From the NCBI RefSeq assembly GCF_014696925.1, contig NZ_JACJQY010000026.1:1-64000 (forward strand): a DNA stretch of 64,000 nucleotides, written 5' to 3'. Origin of the DNA: Phormidium tenue FACHB-1050 (GTDB lineage: Bacteria > Cyanobacteriota > Cyanobacteriia > Pseudanabaenales > Pseudanabaenaceae). Both the position numbers and the translations under genes were made by a program. The notes under the pieces were generated by a model that did not search any database, had not been told where the DNA came from, and worked only from the letters and a program-made list of their open reading frames with translations. Positions within the stretch are counted from its first letter, which is position 1, and each line of letters begins with the position of its first letter. Below, piece after piece: positions 41,387 through 49,573 of the stretch.

Positions 41387-43666
41387 ATGGCACGATCACT
41401 ACGGGCTTCTCAGAAAGATATAAGTAATATCAAAAAGGCGATGAGGCGCGAGAAGTATACGCAACAGCTTCTTGCTGAACAACTAAAAATTTCGCGATCT
41501 ACTATTACAGCCTTATTTGCTGGGAAACCGATTGACAAAAACAATTTCAACGAAATATGTGAATATCTTGGACTCAGAGAGATACGAGGGGAAGAAGCCG
41601 TAAGTGATGACCTCGATCTCCTAGTCAAAGAGGTGAAGCAAAAAATCGCGGCGGATGTGACCGATCGCTGTGGGACGATGCGGGTATTGGATATGACGCA
41701 ACCTGTCGATCTGGATCGCATTTATACCGATGTGAATATCATTAAGGATGTAATCGGGCGGCGGCGGATTGGCTATGACGAGGTGATGGAGGTATGTACC
41801 CGTGAGCATTTTGATCGCTTTTTGGTAGGAACGATTAAAGAACGGGTGGCGGGATTTGAGGCGGTTGAAGAATTTCAAAAACTAGTGGTATTGGGTAAAC
41901 CGGGGGCAGGAAAAACCACATTTATGAAATATTTGGCTATGTCTTGTCTCAGTGGTAGGTTCCATGGGGAACTTGTGCCGATCTTTGTGACGCTGAAGGC
42001 TTATGCGGAGGAGAGGGGACAGCCAACGCTAGAGAATTACATTTTAAACGAGTTCCAACAGCTTAAAGTATCGCAAGATGTGGTGCAATGCTTACTAGAA
42101 AATGGTAAAGCGTTAATCTTATTGGATGGATTAGATGAAATTAAAGATGAGCACGATTATCAAGTGAAGCAAGATATTAAAAAATTCTCAACACGTTGGC
42201 TTAAAAATAGGTTTGTAATTACTAGTCGAATTCCTGCAAGAGCTAATGAATTTGAGACCTTTACAGATGTAGAAGTTAGTGATTTTGATAATGAGCAAAT
42301 TGAAACATTCATTAATCAATGGTTTTTGAAGAAAAATAAAACAGAAGCAAAAATTTTAATAGAGCAATTGAAATATAATCAACCTGTAAAAGAATTAGCC
42401 AAAACTCCATTACTACTAACTCTAATATGTTATTTGTATGGGCAACGTCAAAACTTACCTGTGAAGCTATCAGAACTTTACAAGGAAGGAGTAGAAGTAT
42501 TAATGAAAACATGGGGGAGTGAACGTAAGGTTAAAGGCGAGGAAATTTATAAAAACTTTTCCCTCCAAAACAAACAGAGTATGTTAGGAAAAATTGCTTT
42601 TAGCGCGTTTGAGAATAGTGAATATTTCTTGCATAAGGATACTTTACAAAAACAAATTGAAGATATGTTTAATCTATCTAACTCAGATTATAGTGAAGTG
42701 ATTTTAGAGGCAATTGAGTATCATCACGGTTTATTAGTTACTCGAGCAAAAAATATTTATTCTTTTTCTCATCTTACTTTCCAAGAATATTTCACAGCAC
42801 GCGAAATTGAACAGAAACAAAAATTTGAAATGCTAGTGCAACATATCACTGACCCTAGATGGAGACATGTTATTTTACTAACTGTGGAATTAAGACAATC
42901 GGATGATATTTTACGATTGATGAAAAAGCAAATAGATGAAATGCTAGCAGTGAACGAGAAGTTTCAATGCTTTTTACTTTGGTTACAGCAAAAAACGAAT
43001 TCTGTACACACTAGGTATAAACACGTTGCTGTTAGAGCTTATTATGCTGATGCTGTAGTTTGTGCGTATGAACTCCCTTATGCACTTGACTATGGACTTG
43101 AAATTGATTTCACTTATGATCTCAATCTTGATATTGATATTGATATTGACCTCAAACTTATTCTTGATATCCATCTCATTCACACGCTGGAAATCCTTTT
43201 CAATATAGACTCTAATCTTAAATCAGTCCTTGAAATCGCCTTTAAACTCTCTCTCAATTTAAACAACAATATTTTTTCGGAAATCTTTTTTGAGATTGAA
43301 TTCTATCTAAAACTAGCTCATGAAATTGCCCTTGAGCTATCTTGTAAAGCCAATATAGCTGATACTGAGTTACAGCAATTAGTACAAACAGTTAAAGATG
43401 AATTGCCATCACCAATTAATGATCTCAAAATATACTTGCAATGGTGGCAAACTAATGGAAGAGAGTGGGTTCAAAAATTCCGTCATGTATGTATTAAGCA
43501 CCGCAATATTGGTCACGATTGGCAGTTTACTAAAGAACAAGTGGAACTTCTCAAAAAATATTACGCAGCCAATCTCCTCCTTGTCGAGTGCATGAACCGC
43601 AGCTACGTCAGCAAACAAGTCCGCGAAGAAATTGAATCAACGATGCTTTTGCCAAGTAAAAAGTAG
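41387..43666 (+). CDS. HTH-NACHT NTPase (candidate bNACHT-type defence protein)
   Basis: A 759-residue STAND ATPase. Residues 15-62 resemble a Xre-like helix-turn-helix (TQQLLAEQLKISRSTITALF). A NACHT domain follows, with Walker A G170-K-P-G-A-G-K-T and Walker B LILLDGLDEI. TSRIPARANEF and HLTFQEYFTAREI match NACHT sensor and C-terminal blocks. Residues about 560-630 have an unusual Asp/Leu/Ile alternation (DLNLDIDIDIDLKLILDIHL), as in the repetitive sensor region of cyanobacterial NACHT proteins. Related bacterial NACHT proteins act in antiphage defence; that role here is inferred. The second half is more AT-rich than neighbours. Confidence 0.85.
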   Translation: MARSLRASQKDISNIKKAMRREKYTQQLLAEQLKISRSTITALFAGKPIDKNNFNEICEYLGLREIRGEEAVSDDLDLLVKEVKQKIAADVTDRCGTMRVLDMTQPVDLDRIYTDVNIIKDVIGRRRIGYDEVMEVCTREHFDRFLVGTIKERVAGFEAVEEFQKLVVLGKPGAGKTTFMKYLAMSCLSGRFHGELVPIFVTLKAYAEERGQPTLENYILNEFQQLKVSQDVVQCLLENGKALILLDGLDEIKDEHDYQVKQDIKKFSTRWLKNRFVITSRIPARANEFETFTDVEVSDFDNEQIETFINQWFLKKNKTEAKILIEQLKYNQPVKELAKTPLLLTLICYLYGQRQNLPVKLSELYKEGVEVLMKTWGSERKVKGEEIYKNFSLQNKQSMLGKIAFSAFENSEYFLHKDTLQKQIEDMFNLSNSDYSEVILEAIEYHHGLLVTRAKNIYSFSHLTFQEYFTAREIEQKQKFEMLVQHITDPRWRHVILLTVELRQSDDILRLMKKQIDEMLAVNEKFQCFLLWLQQKTNSVHTRYKHVAVRAYYADAVVCAYELPYALDYGLEIDFTYDLNLDIDIDIDLKLILDIHLIHTLEILFNIDSNLKSVLEIAFKLSLNLNNNIFSEIFFEIEFYLKLAHEIALELSCKANIADTELQQLVQTVKDELPSPINDLKIYLQWWQTNGREWVQKFRHVCIKHRNIGHDWQFTKEQVELLKKYYAANLLLVECMNRSYVSKQVREEIESTMLLPSKK

Positions 43667-44792: not shown

Positions 44793-45021
44793 TCGCTTCG
44801 TACCTAAAATTGTTTTCAAAGTTGCCATATAGTTAGTGGACAAATTGCGATCGCCTTCACCACAACTGATAAAAATACTTTGCTCTAAAGCGATCGCACT
44901 GTAGATATGCTGATAGGCGATCGCAGTCCACAAATACGATCATCATAAAATATAGCTGTTTGCTTAATATTGCGTCATAATGGGGAGTAAACCTTAGCAA
45001 AACTTGACCCAGTTTAGAACA

Positions 45022-47898
45022 ATGACATCCGCTCCTAAAGCCAAATCTGAGAATCCAGCCAGTAATCCCGAATACAAAGACACCGTTAACTTGCCGCAAA
45101 CTGACTTTTCGATGCGGGCAAATGCAATTATTCGTGAACCTGAGATTCAAAAATTTTGGCAAGAGCAAGGTGTTTTTGAAGCCCTTTCCCACAATAACAA
45201 AGGCGATGTGTTTACCCTCCATGATGGCCCCCCCTACGCCAACGGCACATTACACATGGGTCATGCATTAAACAAAGTTTTAAAAGATATCATTAATCGC
45301 TATAAGTTATTGCGCGGCTACAAAGTACGCTACGTGCTGGGTTGGGACTGTCATGGGTTGCCAATCGAGCTTAAAGTTTTACAGAATATGAAGGCAGAGG
45401 AACGCGCTAATTTAACGCCTTTACAATTGCGGAAAAAAGCAAAGGAATTTGCACTGCAAACGATTAATGAGCAAGCAACGGGATTCAAACGTTGGGGTGT
45501 TTGGGGTGACTATGAGAATTCCTATTACACATTGAAGCCTGAATACGAAGCCGAACAAATCAATGTATTCGGACGCATGGCTCTCAAAGGCTATATCTAT
45601 CGTGGTCTCAAGCCCGTATATTGGTCGCCCAGTTCCCATACAGCGCTTGCAGAAGCCGAATTGGAATACCCCGAAAATCATGTTTCGCGCAGTATCTATG
45701 TTGCTTTCCCAGTCACTCAGCCTAGCGATAAGTTGAAGGCGATCTCTGATCTAACCAATCTCCATGCCGTAATCTGGACAACTACACCTTGGACAATTCC
45801 CGCCAACTTGGGCATTAGCGCTAATCCCCATCTCAGCTATAGCATCGTCGCGGCTGGTGACAAGAACTATATCGTGGCAACGGAACTGGTTGAGAAGTTA
45901 GCCGCTACCTTTGAGCAAGCTTTGGAAGTAAAATATACCTTCAAGGGTGATGTTCTCGAAGGCGCGATCGCTAAGCATCCCATTTGCGATCGCCCTAGTC
46001 CCATCGTGCTAGGCGATCACGTCACTGCGGAATCAGGTACGGGCTTAGTGCATACTGCGCCTAATCATGGTCAAGATGACTTTATCGTGGGCAGAAAATA
46101 TCATTTGGGCATGATTTCCCTTGTGGACGATCGCGGTATTTTCAATGAAGATGCTGGCGAAGAATTAGCAGGTTTGAGCGTGCTGAAGGAAGGTAATGCT
46201 AAGGTTGTGGAAATCTTGACCGCCAATGGAACCCTGATTAAAGAAGAAGCCTATAACCATAAATATCCCTACGATTGGCGTACTAAGAAGCCTGTGATTG
46301 TTCGAGCTACGGAGCAATGGTTTGCCTCCGTTGACGGTTTCCGCGAAGAAGCTTTAAAATCGATCAAAGAAGTTAACTGGATTCCTGCGATCGGTGAGAA
46401 TCGGATTACTTCAATGGTGCAAGAGCGATCGGACTGGTGTATTTCCCGTCAGCGCACTTGGGGCGTACCGATTCCTGTATTCTATGACGAAGAAACCAAT
46501 GAGCCTTTGCTCACCGAAGAAACCATTACTCACATTCAAGAACTCATTCGTGAACATGGTTCCGATGTGTGGTGGGAAAGAGAAGTGGAAGAATTACTTC
46601 CTGAAGCCTATCAAAATAATGGTCGCAAGTATCGTAAAGGCACAGACACAATGGATGTTTGGTTTGACTCTGGCTCCTCTTGGGCTGGGGTACTTGGTGG
46701 CGAAAGTCATAATTCGCGCACCGTTCCCTATGCGATGAACTACCCTGCGGATATGTATCTGGAAGGTTCTGATCAACATCGCGGTTGGTTCCAATCTTCG
46801 CTTTTAACTAGTGTGGCAACCAATGGCTATGCACCTTACAAGACTGTGTTAACCCATGGCTTTGTCCTCGATGAAAAGGGACAGAAGATGAGTAAATCCC
46901 TCGGTAACATCGTCGATCCGATGGTGGTAATCAATGGTGGTAAAGATCAGAAGAAAGAGCCGCCATACGGTGCAGATGTGATCCGTCTCTGGGCGGCGAG
47001 TGTCGATTACAACGGTGATGTTCCCATCGGCAAAACCATCTTGGCGCAAATGTCCGATGTATCACGCAAGATTCGCAATACCGCTAGATTTTTGCTCAGC
47101 AACCTCTTTGACTTTCAACCTGCGGAACATCTAGTTCCCTATGCCGATCTTACCGAAAGCGATCGCTATATCCTGCATCGCCTTTACGAAGTCACCAAAG
47201 ACATCACCGAAGCATACGAGAAATTCCAGTTCTCGCGATTCTTCCAAACCATCCAAAACTTCTGCACCGTCGATTTATCTAACTTCTATTTAGACATCGC
47301 CAAGGATCGTCTCTACATCAGTGCGCCTAACGCTCCCCGTCGCCGCAGTTGCCAAACAGTGTTGATGTATTGCTTAGAAGCAATTGCCAAGGCGATCGCT
47401 CCTGTACTTGCCCACACTGCCGAAGATATCTGGCAATACTTGCCCTACCCTGCACCTACTAAGTCTGTCTTCCAATCTGGCTGGTTTATTGTGCATCCTG
47501 AATGGCATAAACCTGAATTGGCAGACAAATGGGAATACTTGCGCGATGTCCGTTCTGAAGTAAACAAAGTTTTGGAATCCGCCAGAACTGGCAAACTCAT
47601 CGGCGCACCCTTAGAAGCGAAAGTTTTACTAGTAGCCACCGATGCAACTCAGAAAGCTTATCTAGAATCATTAGGAGAAGATTTGCGCTATCTCTTTATC
47701 GTGTCACAGGTGGAGCTTGTCGATAGCTTACCTGATGCTGACTTCAAGGGAGAGGCTACCAATTTACAAATTGCGATCGCTAAAGCCGATGGCGAAAAAT
47801 GTCCTCGTTGTTGGAACTACTCCACCCATATCGGTGAGTCGGCTGAGCATCCCCATATCTGCGATCGCTGCGTCGGTGCATTGGCTGGTATTTTTTAG
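45022..47898 (+). CDS. ileS: Isoleucyl-tRNA synthetase
   Basis: A class I aminoacyl-tRNA synthetase of about 958 residues. The HIGH motif is in PYANGTLHMGHALNK and the KMSKS motif in DEKGQKMSKSLGN. The editing domain has the WTTTPWTIPANL block. The C-terminal zinc finger is CPRCWNYSTHIGESAEHPHI, then CDRC. The frame is open from TTG at 45004, but ATG at 45022 (MTSAPKAKSENP) is the more likely start. The last 60 bases of the gene are repeated, with few changes, at 49464-49529. Confidence 0.95.
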   Translation: MTSAPKAKSENPASNPEYKDTVNLPQTDFSMRANAIIREPEIQKFWQEQGVFEALSHNNKGDVFTLHDGPPYANGTLHMGHALNKVLKDIINRYKLLRGYKVRYVLGWDCHGLPIELKVLQNMKAEERANLTPLQLRKKAKEFALQTINEQATGFKRWGVWGDYENSYYTLKPEYEAEQINVFGRMALKGYIYRGLKPVYWSPSSHTALAEAELEYPENHVSRSIYVAFPVTQPSDKLKAISDLTNLHAVIWTTTPWTIPANLGISANPHLSYSIVAAGDKNYIVATELVEKLAATFEQALEVKYTFKGDVLEGAIAKHPICDRPSPIVLGDHVTAESGTGLVHTAPNHGQDDFIVGRKYHLGMISLVDDRGIFNEDAGEELAGLSVLKEGNAKVVEILTANGTLIKEEAYNHKYPYDWRTKKPVIVRATEQWFASVDGFREEALKSIKEVNWIPAIGENRITSMVQERSDWCISRQRTWGVPIPVFYDEETNEPLLTEETITHIQELIREHGSDVWWEREVEELLPEAYQNNGRKYRKGTDTMDVWFDSGSSWAGVLGGESHNSRTVPYAMNYPADMYLEGSDQHRGWFQSSLLTSVATNGYAPYKTVLTHGFVLDEKGQKMSKSLGNIVDPMVVINGGKDQKKEPPYGADVIRLWAASVDYNGDVPIGKTILAQMSDVSRKIRNTARFLLSNLFDFQPAEHLVPYADLTESDRYILHRLYEVTKDITEAYEKFQFSRFFQTIQNFCTVDLSNFYLDIAKDRLYISAPNAPRRRSCQTVLMYCLEAIAKAIAPVLAHTAEDIWQYLPYPAPTKSVFQSGWFIVHPEWHKPELADKWEYLRDVRSEVNKVLESARTGKLIGAPLEAKVLLVATDATQKAYLESLGEDLRYLFIVSQVELVDSLPDADFKGEATNLQIAIAKADGEKCPRCWNYSTHIGESAEHPHICDRCVGALAGIF

Positions 47899-47907
47899 TA
47901 TTGCCCT

Positions 47908-49326
47908 ATGATTAATCTTGAAACCCTTGAGGAATGGTTACTTGCACCCACAGAGACAGAACGGCTTGAATTTAAACAAGCAACACAACAGTATGATTCG
48001 ACGAAACTGCTGAAATATTGTGTTGCGCTGGCAAATGAGGGTGGTGGTTATATCGTTTTAGGGGTTACCGATAAACGACCTCGCCAAGTCGTGGGTTCTC
48101 AAGCTTGGTCAACAGCAGAAGCTCTAAACAAAATTAAAGCCCATATACTTCAAAAACTTAGATTTCGGGTAGACATTACCGAATTACAACATCCGAACGG
48201 GCGAGTACTAGTTTTTGCAGTGCCTCCTCGTCCTGTGGGACAAGCATTGGAATATGAGGGAACCTACTTGATGAGAGTTGGTGAAGAACTACAACCAATG
48301 ACTCCTGATCGACTGAAACAGATTTTTGCAGAAGATCAGGAAGATTGGTTTTCCCAACCTGCCCGACTAGACGCTAGTCCAGATGATGTAATTGCTTTAC
48401 TCGATACCCAAACTTACTTTGAACTCCTAAAAGTTCCTTATCCAACCACCCGTGAGGCTGTTTTAGAGAGATTACAAAGCCAAGATTTAATCAAACAAAC
48501 AACTCAAGGCTGGACAATCACTAATTTAGCCGTGATCGTTTTGGCTAAAAAGCTTGACGCTTTTTCTCTCGCATTAGCTCGTAAAGCTCCCCGTGTCATA
48601 ATTTATGAAGGTTTCAATAAACTACAAACTCGTGATGATAAAACGTGGAACCAAGGATATGCTGTAACCTTTGAAGAATTAATTAGTTTCGTTTACTCAT
48701 CTGCACCGCAAAATCGTTTTATCGAAGAAGCAGTACGCCAAGAAGTAAAGATGTTTCCGATGCAGGCACTAAGAGAACTTATTGCTAATGCCTTGGTGCA
48801 TCAGGATTTTCTAGCAACAGGTGCTTCTGTAATGATTGAAATGTATAGCGATCGCGTTGAGATCGCTAATCCTGGCATTCCACCTATTTCCACTGATCGC
48901 TTCATTGATGAATACCGCTCCCGCAACGAACAAATCGCCGATCTAATGCGCCGTTTTGGTATTTGCGAAGAAAAAGGAAGTGGAATTGACAAGGTTGTAA
49001 GTGCCGCAGAAGGTAATCATCTACCAGCACCAGATTTTCGCGTAGGAGAAACTCGTACCACGACAGTGTTATTTGCTTACCAGACTTTTGATGAAATGAG
49101 TAGATCGGATCGCATTCGAGCCTGTTATCAGCATTGCTGTTTGCTATATGTTAGTAACAAACAGATGTCTAACCAGACTTTACGCGAAAGATTTCGTTTG
49201 AGTGAGTCAAAAACAGCTACTGTTTCTCTGATTATAAAAGCTACGAAAGAAGCTGATTTAATAAAGATCGATGACTCTGAATCAACTTCTACCCGCTATG
49301 CACGCTATCTGCCTTTTTGGGCATGA
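47908..49326 (+). CDS. AlbA_2 (Schlafen-like) DNA-binding domain protein with HATPase_c-like C-terminus
   Basis: A 472-residue protein. Residues 10-150 form an AlbA_2/divergent AAA_4 domain (ETERLEFKQATQQYDSTKLL; LANEGGGYIVLGVTD). Residues about 280-390 match the ATPase-like fold of this RecG-related group (ALRELIANALVHQDF; DRVEIANPGIPP; GSGIDKVV). The C-terminal 80 residues look like a winged helix. Function is unclear; homologues are called transcriptional regulators or RecG-like helicases, and some are found in defence islands. It begins 9 bases after ileS and is enclosed by two copies of the ileS 3' end. Confidence 0.82.
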   Translation: MINLETLEEWLLAPTETERLEFKQATQQYDSTKLLKYCVALANEGGGYIVLGVTDKRPRQVVGSQAWSTAEALNKIKAHILQKLRFRVDITELQHPNGRVLVFAVPPRPVGQALEYEGTYLMRVGEELQPMTPDRLKQIFAEDQEDWFSQPARLDASPDDVIALLDTQTYFELLKVPYPTTREAVLERLQSQDLIKQTTQGWTITNLAVIVLAKKLDAFSLALARKAPRVIIYEGFNKLQTRDDKTWNQGYAVTFEELISFVYSSAPQNRFIEEAVRQEVKMFPMQALRELIANALVHQDFLATGASVMIEMYSDRVEIANPGIPPISTDRFIDEYRSRNEQIADLMRRFGICEEKGSGIDKVVSAAEGNHLPAPDFRVGETRTTTVLFAYQTFDEMSRSDRIRACYQHCCLLYVSNKQMSNQTLRERFRLSESKTATVSLIIKATKEADLIKIDDSESTSTRYARYLPFWA

Positions 49327-49328
49327 AA

Positions 49329-49460
49329 GTGTTTTAACGCAAACCCAAATCAACAGCCTTTGCTTGCTGAACCCCTTATGAAATCGACTAAAAAGTGCTT
49401 TAATGCAAACCCAAAAAAGATAAAATAAAGCTGAAATTACTTTATTGGTTTAGTGTTGAT
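49329..49460. repeat. Short direct repeat downstream of the AlbA_2 gene
   Basis: GTGTTTTAACGCAAACCCAAA (49329 on) is repeated as GTGCTTTAATGCAAACCCAA about 62 bases later. Non-coding. Confidence 0.5.
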
Positions 49461-49463
49461 TGT

Positions 49464-49529
49464 GTCGGCTGAGCATCCCCATGTTAGCGATCGCTGCCTC
49501 GGTGCATTGGCTGGTACTTTTTAGTAGTT
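49464..49529 (+). pseudogene. Displaced duplicate of the ileS 3' end
   Basis: Bases 49464-49529 align to 47838-47903, the last codons, stop and first bases after ileS, with about five substitutions. The copy encodes SAEHPHVSDRCLGALAGTF and a stop where ileS has SAEHPHICDRCVGALAGIF. The zinc-ligand cysteine C is changed to S. It marks the far side of the segment carrying the AlbA_2 gene. Confidence 0.85.
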
Positions 49530-49532
49530 GCT

Positions 49533-49573
49533 CAAATTAAAGAGGCGGCGCTTTGCGCCGCCTCTTTAATTTG
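49533..49573. terminator. GC-core hairpin after the ileS duplicate
   Basis: CAAATTAAAGAGGCGGCGC-TTT-exact complement. It lies between the plus-strand genes and the convergent amidase gene and could have been the original ileS terminator. Confidence 0.7.

Follow-up and report, generated by a model that had tools for sequence, protein, structure and literature searches.

How does the 3' end of ileS, the gene for isoleucyl-tRNA synthetase, come to stand on both sides of one small gene? The question is raised by the window analysed here, a 64-kb stretch of Phormidium tenue FACHB-1050, in which the original prediction, made from the letters alone, described a 1.6-kb segment that joined at the ileS end and restored it as integrative elements do, but with no integrase. 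The duplication itself is borne out by alignment: the final 19 codons of ileS, plus the stop and some further bases, recur at a spacing of 1626 bp, over 66 nt and with 91% identity (Table 1), and six changes separate the copies where about five had been estimated. The local alignment score of the distal tail is 54, and since none of 1,270 further windows across the 64 kb exceeds 16.5, the repeat is not a chance one. The loss of a zinc-ligand Cys codon from the copy is also real, with Ser found there instead (SAEHPHVSDRCLGALAGTF in the distal versus SAEHPHICDRCVGALAGIF in the proximal copy); the Cys is retained in the distal tails of G005 and G022, and its loss in the window thus represents drift in a non-coding copy. 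The statement that the segment contains one gene only is right for the gene, while it overlooked about 135 nt of non-coding DNA with two conserved repeats. The hairpin announced behind the distal copy exists, its arms being fully complementary. A tRNA or tmRNA as the true target is ruled out, none being found within the 64-kb window. Upstream of ileS, at 41387-43666, the sequence reads as an NTPase of the NACHT type with a helix-turn-helix at its N terminus, which may be one more defence gene close to the ileS site.

Table 1. Features of the ileS locus, in positions of the 64-kb window.
Feature	Position	Strand	Remarks
ileS, isoleucyl-tRNA synthetase	45004..47898	+	Intact C-terminal zinc motif CPRC...CDRC; from the ORF list and the ileS of 25 congeners
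Proximal copy of the ileS tail (3' end of the coding sequence, with stop TAG)	47835..47900	+	Contains the stop and the junction of the element side
Bacterial Schlafen gene, 472 aa	47908..49326	+	SLFN_AlbA_2 (16-131), HATPase_c_4 (305-387), winged helix (~399-454)
Repeat 1, AAAGTGTTTTAACGCAAACC	49326..49345	+	Immediately past the Schlafen stop codon
Conserved non-coding right arm of cassette	49327..49463	+	Three cargo kinds
Repeat 2, AAAGTGCTTTAATGCAAACC	49392..49411	+	Exactly 66 bp from repeat 1
Distal copy of the ileS tail (native tail, displaced; Ser for the zinc Cys)	49461..49526	+	
ileS terminator-like hairpin	49533..49573	+	19-bp arms, 100% complementary; conserved in G005 and G022

We then compared the ileS 3' regions of the window genome (5.6 Mb) and 25 Pseudanabaena congeners, 26 genomes altogether. 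The gene between the tails, encoding a bacterial Schlafen protein, is present at an identity of at least 82% in seven of them, always directly 3' of ileS, and no copy away from ileS was found in the 26 genomes. Its start lies 10 nt past the ileS stop (134 nt in G020), and all seven carriers possess a distal ileS tail 1.6-1.75 kb downstream, the repeat measuring 66 nt in the window and about 45-65 nt in the relatives. A gene copy downstream of ileS that lacks the second tail, the arrangement that would have spoken against the prediction, was encountered in 0 of 7; the tail of G018 is internally part-inverted, between two GCGATCGC (HIP1) palindromes, and that of G004 is interrupted by an insertion. 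In G019 the Schlafen gene itself is frameshifted.

Empty sites display one ileS tail followed by the flank that elsewhere stands behind a distal tail, as had been foreseen, in three pairings of filled and empty genomes (G018/G008, G020/G002 and G004/G002). At the empty site of G008, the single tail leads into the flank seen behind the distal tail of G018, with 112 of 117 positions identical after the stop, and the two flank alignments overlap in G008 by 51 nt, which is the duplicated tail. The flank of the empty G002 site is that behind the distal tails of G020 (111/117) and G004 (103/116). Moreover, the proximal stop is TAG and the distal one TAA in G004, G018, G020 and G022, and TAA is also found at most empty sites. 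Aggregated, the flank matches and the stop pattern indicate that the distal copy is what was the native tail, now displaced together with its own stop and terminator, and that the proximal junction arrived with the element, congruent with a segment that joined at the ileS 3' end and restored it. For the flank of the window itself, the hairpin of which is shared with G005 and G022, no empty-site relative exists among the 25 congeners. G000, G005 and G022 are close relatives with one common flank, and probably carry one insertion. A simple local duplication of the tail or an assembly artefact, with no insertion at all, is an explanation that one genome alone could not have excluded; its likelihood is negligible, since the same arrangement recurs in seven independent assemblies with different flanks, in addition to the empty sites, and these observations together with the alignment score refute it, as they do a chance repeat.

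Gene and host histories do not coincide. The carriers are scattered among empty sisters on the rpoB tree, and the Schlafen gene tree is discordant with both ileS and rpoB. At four-fold sites, G019 and G022 diverge by 0.24 in the Schlafen gene, versus 0.92 in ileS and 0.51 in rpoB, and G000 and G004 by 0.21, versus 0.63 and 0.60, respectively. The low silent-site divergence and the discordant tree thus point to a cassette that moves between species. It could be argued that one ancestral insertion in the genus was followed by repeated precise losses between the tails, with no recent transfer, since tails forming ~60-bp direct repeats make precise deletion easy, and since the one flank of G000, G005 and G022 is probably that of a single insertion. 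Between distant hosts, however, the gene has diverged at silent sites a quarter to half as much as ileS, which together with the discordant tree largely refutes losses as the sole explanation and leaves it a very slim chance. Many precise losses of an early insertion do account for some of the patchiness, but leave the silent-site discordance unexplained. The C-terminal allele of ileS that G000 and G004 have in common, which may reflect co-transfer, is also present in the gene-free G001 and G002; long co-transfer of ileS and the gene is out as a general rule, since exchange of the C-terminal ileS alleles proceeds without regard to the gene. A longer, divergent allele of the CPRCYNY type, starting at codon ~905, occupies the C-terminal region in G020, G014, G009 and G019 (loci L024-L027), and ileS 3' ends are strongly mosaic across the genus.

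The conserved right arm between the Schlafen gene and the distal tail was recovered in 10 Pseudanabaena genomes, within the genus only at ileS, and other restriction-modification (RM) or allied defence cargo may take the place of the Schlafen gene in front of it. In G001 and G006 it follows an RM-type pair, a C5 methylase and a partner gene without Pfam match, and in G011 an unrelated two-gene cassette; all three genomes keep short remnants of the Schlafen 3' end. In G017, ileS is immediately followed by another C5 methylase with a BsoBI-like endonuclease, on a contig that ends before any right arm. Furthermore, a third, decayed ileS tail lies between two units in G011 (score 19.5, versus at most 16.0 in 500 shuffles), representing tandem accretion. 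The swapped cargo and the extra tail indicate that the ileS site accumulates and exchanges small defence units. As a separate observation, the region +2.5 to +4.2 kb past ileS in G006 (L049), behind the RM-type pair, holds three direct repeats of 70-146 nt, which separate MazF-like and MNT/HEPN-like toxin-antitoxin genes.

Integrative elements of the CIME and IME type reside at 3' ends of housekeeping genes, where the gene end is regenerated, direct repeats flank the element and tandem accretion occurs. The ileS cassette resembles them in regenerating the gene end, in its att-like flanking direct repeats and in tandem accretion, but differs in measuring only 1.6 kb and in having no integrase in or near it among the matches listed. 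Indeed, the absence of an integrase extends beyond the original claim: there is none in the ORF list of the 1.6-kb segment, and no tyrosine recombinase (PF00589) lies within 30 kb of ileS in the 26 genomes, among the matches listed. Such recombinases are present elsewhere in every genome of the genus, and the tails could in principle be att sites of a CIME- or satellite-like element without its own integrase, served by a tyrosine or serine recombinase in trans. The tails flanking precise empty and filled alleles, the accretion in G011, typical of att sites, and the nearly identical start of the distal copy in most elements would suit this arrangement. The shared start probably reflects common descent, however, as it also follows from a common right arm, and the displaced tails differ at several positions; moreover, a pattern search of IMG/VR contigs returned no ileS tail, which together with the lack of listed recombinases near ileS renders the att-site reading unlikely. 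A protein search of IMG/VR likewise returned no close relative, and a phage or plasmid carrier with the ileS tail was consequently set aside. Nor were features of an integron cassette found, the paired repeats lacking a conserved fold (6 pairs, 0 compensatory changes) and the locus an integrase among the matches listed.

We consider the 1.6-kb segment likely to be a single-gene defence cassette that spreads horizontally, comprising the Schlafen gene, its paired 3' sites, the right arm and ~60 bp of ileS end, and moving by presumed crossovers in the tails. It lies past the stop codon of ileS and ahead of the terminator, and insertion into the ileS tail is recurrent in freshwater cyanobacteria. 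Entry and exit would take place by homologous crossovers within the ~60-bp tail copies, either of an excised circle that enters by a single crossover, or of incoming DNA with ileS on its left and the tail on its right. Homologous crossover is the route that we infer to be the likeliest, although 60 bp offers little homology, and the crossovers may instead be the work of a recombinase that acts in trans from another genomic locus. As crossovers would fall within the tails, ileS would always be whole and the Schlafen gene read from the ileS transcript; no promoter-like site was found between the two genes.

Among described systems, the cassette is most like insertion with long target duplication, reported for RM genes in Helicobacter pylori and others (Nobusato et al. 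2000, as cited in PMC1643837 and PMC3031569). The two share a polymorphic insertion of defence genes, a direct target repeat of tens of bases, an empty allele and the lack of an own integrase. The ileS cassette differs in the repeated use, throughout one genus, of a single fixed site, the 3' end of ileS, with nearly the same start of the repeat in most copies, and in a repeat that travels with the element and is recombined. Its cargo differs too, being a solitary Schlafen gene that brings its own sites and is exchanged for type II RM. A single site in a single genus therefore supplies a natural series of empty, filled, cargo-swapped and tandem alleles, which shows small defence genes moving without an integrase via a duplicated housekeeping-gene tail, an old proposal for which few such series are available.

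What, then, does the cassette deliver? Pfam assigns the SLFN_AlbA_2 (4e-18) and HATPase_c_4 (5.6e-22) domains, and residues 15-68 match the PDB sequences of SLFN11, SLFN8 and SLFN14. An AlphaFold model of the 472-residue protein (mean pLDDT 83) yielded Foldseek matches to DIP2311 (3lmm), to SLFN N domains (E about 5e-5 to 1e-3 for SLFN11/13/14), to HATPase kinases and to a winged helix. The three catalytic carboxylates of SLFN RNases have counterparts in E16, E21 and D55, of which the first two are invariant and the last is an Asn in several homologs. The protein would be a tRNase-type effector of phage defence. Fusions of Schlafen RNases with a minimal histidine kinase and a wHTH are described in a 2026 survey (PMC12839542) as widespread defence-linked effectors, and that survey, with the Taboada 2025 preprint cited there, links bacterial Schlafen RNases of this composition to BREX. 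The protein encoded behind ileS shares its three-part architecture and its type of defence neighbourhood with those BREX-linked Schlafens, but its gene stands solo, with paired 3' sites. Its nearest annotated relatives, 66-67% identical, are ATP-binding AlbA_2 genes between hsdS and hsdR in type I RM operons, on pAQ3 of Picosynechococcus PCC 7002 and on Acidovorax plasmids; these have the same paired repeats behind the gene, whereas the ileS gene is not inside an RM operon.

The paired repeats (consensus AAAGTGCTTNAANGCAAATC, 20 nt, directly 3' of the Schlafen stop) turned out to accompany every close homolog of the gene (loci L138-L150, L126, L127, L136 and L137), be it a solo gene or part of an RM operon, in cyanobacteria and on an Acidovorax plasmid. 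Of 23 arrays, 22 have the repeats exactly 66 bp apart and one has them 67 bp apart, with spacers only 49% identical, and the variable bases agree within an array (1.8 versus 3.7 mismatches; none of 20,000 shuffles as low). In the 5.6-Mb genome the motif has no exact match besides the two window copies, and the repeats were on this ground rejected as operators of a regulon. A structured RNA was also dismissed, as no Rfam family covers the repeats and none of 6 pairs has compensatory changes, as was a CRISPR-like array, the half-conserved spacers being unlike CRISPR spacers.

Of 150 variable protein columns, those of the recognition helix, residues 433-448, track the variable base of the repeat best (mean z 3.7, versus 0.5 elsewhere; Mann-Whitney p = 1e-5, with shared ancestry controlled only by comparing columns). 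The strongest are 437 and 441: T occurs with Ala437, A mostly with Val437 and C mostly with Gly437, and A437/T438/L441 would correspond to TTTAACGC sites, as opposed to TTAAAAGC sites for the V/L/Q set of the A-type clade. This co-variation suggests that the Schlafen protein probably binds, through its winged helix, the 66-bp-spaced sites behind its own gene, a reading towards which we incline with some reserve, and its role there may be control, tethering or mobility. We found no published description of Schlafen genes with paired 3' sites. A feature of this recently recognised immune family comes to light in the paired, precisely spaced DNA sites that bacterial Schlafens have behind the gene, and with which the recognition helix has evolved in step; the sensing or control step of Schlafen defence proteins becomes directly testable.

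Gene and paired sites also occur as a unit at other places. A solo copy is found behind tRNA-Lys in G074. In G142 (contig C1, L138), three methyltransferase 3' ends delimit two intervals, the first with a toxin-antitoxin-like pair and the second with the Schlafen gene, so that a duplicated gene tail with cassettes in tandem is encountered a second time; among the solo copies elsewhere, tail duplication was seen solely there, and does not apply to every solo Schlafen site. In G251 (C212, L144), the Schlafen gene and its repeats lie between two DnaE intein halves, the homing-endonuclease position, where its congener G182 (C5, L167) has a LAGLIDADG ORF; the DnaE intein is split in two genomes of that cyanobacterial genus, and 6 others are without intein. 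Homing-like mobility, in which the protein on its own 3' sites promotes copying of the gene into empty alleles or new gene ends, would account for a unit that turns up at the ileS end, the hsdS-hsdR junction, tRNA-Lys, the duplicated methyltransferase tail and the intein, and for a helix that co-varies with the sites. We nevertheless hold it to be very unlikely, as the known activity of Schlafen domains is that of an RNase rather than a DNA endonuclease, as regulation or tethering would equally account for sites in that position, and as inteins and gene ends may simply be safe landing places; Pfam detected no HEG domain in the protein. That gene and sites form a self-contained mobile unit, with the DNA-bound protein helping to move it into gene ends and even the homing-endonuclease position of a split intein, is a doubtful prospect as well, if slightly less so.

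Among distant homologs on plasmids and in phages, other short iterated motifs often occupy the same place (TTGCTTGATCG, TTATGTGACTG and TTTTGATCGGG), in blocks 71-129 bp apart and often 98-100 bp; they are absent behind rhizobial homologs and two others. The motifs of distant AlbA_2/HATPase genes (L152-L157, L076 and L178-L196) often form pairs at 11-bp steps, and many of the distances are near multiples of 11.
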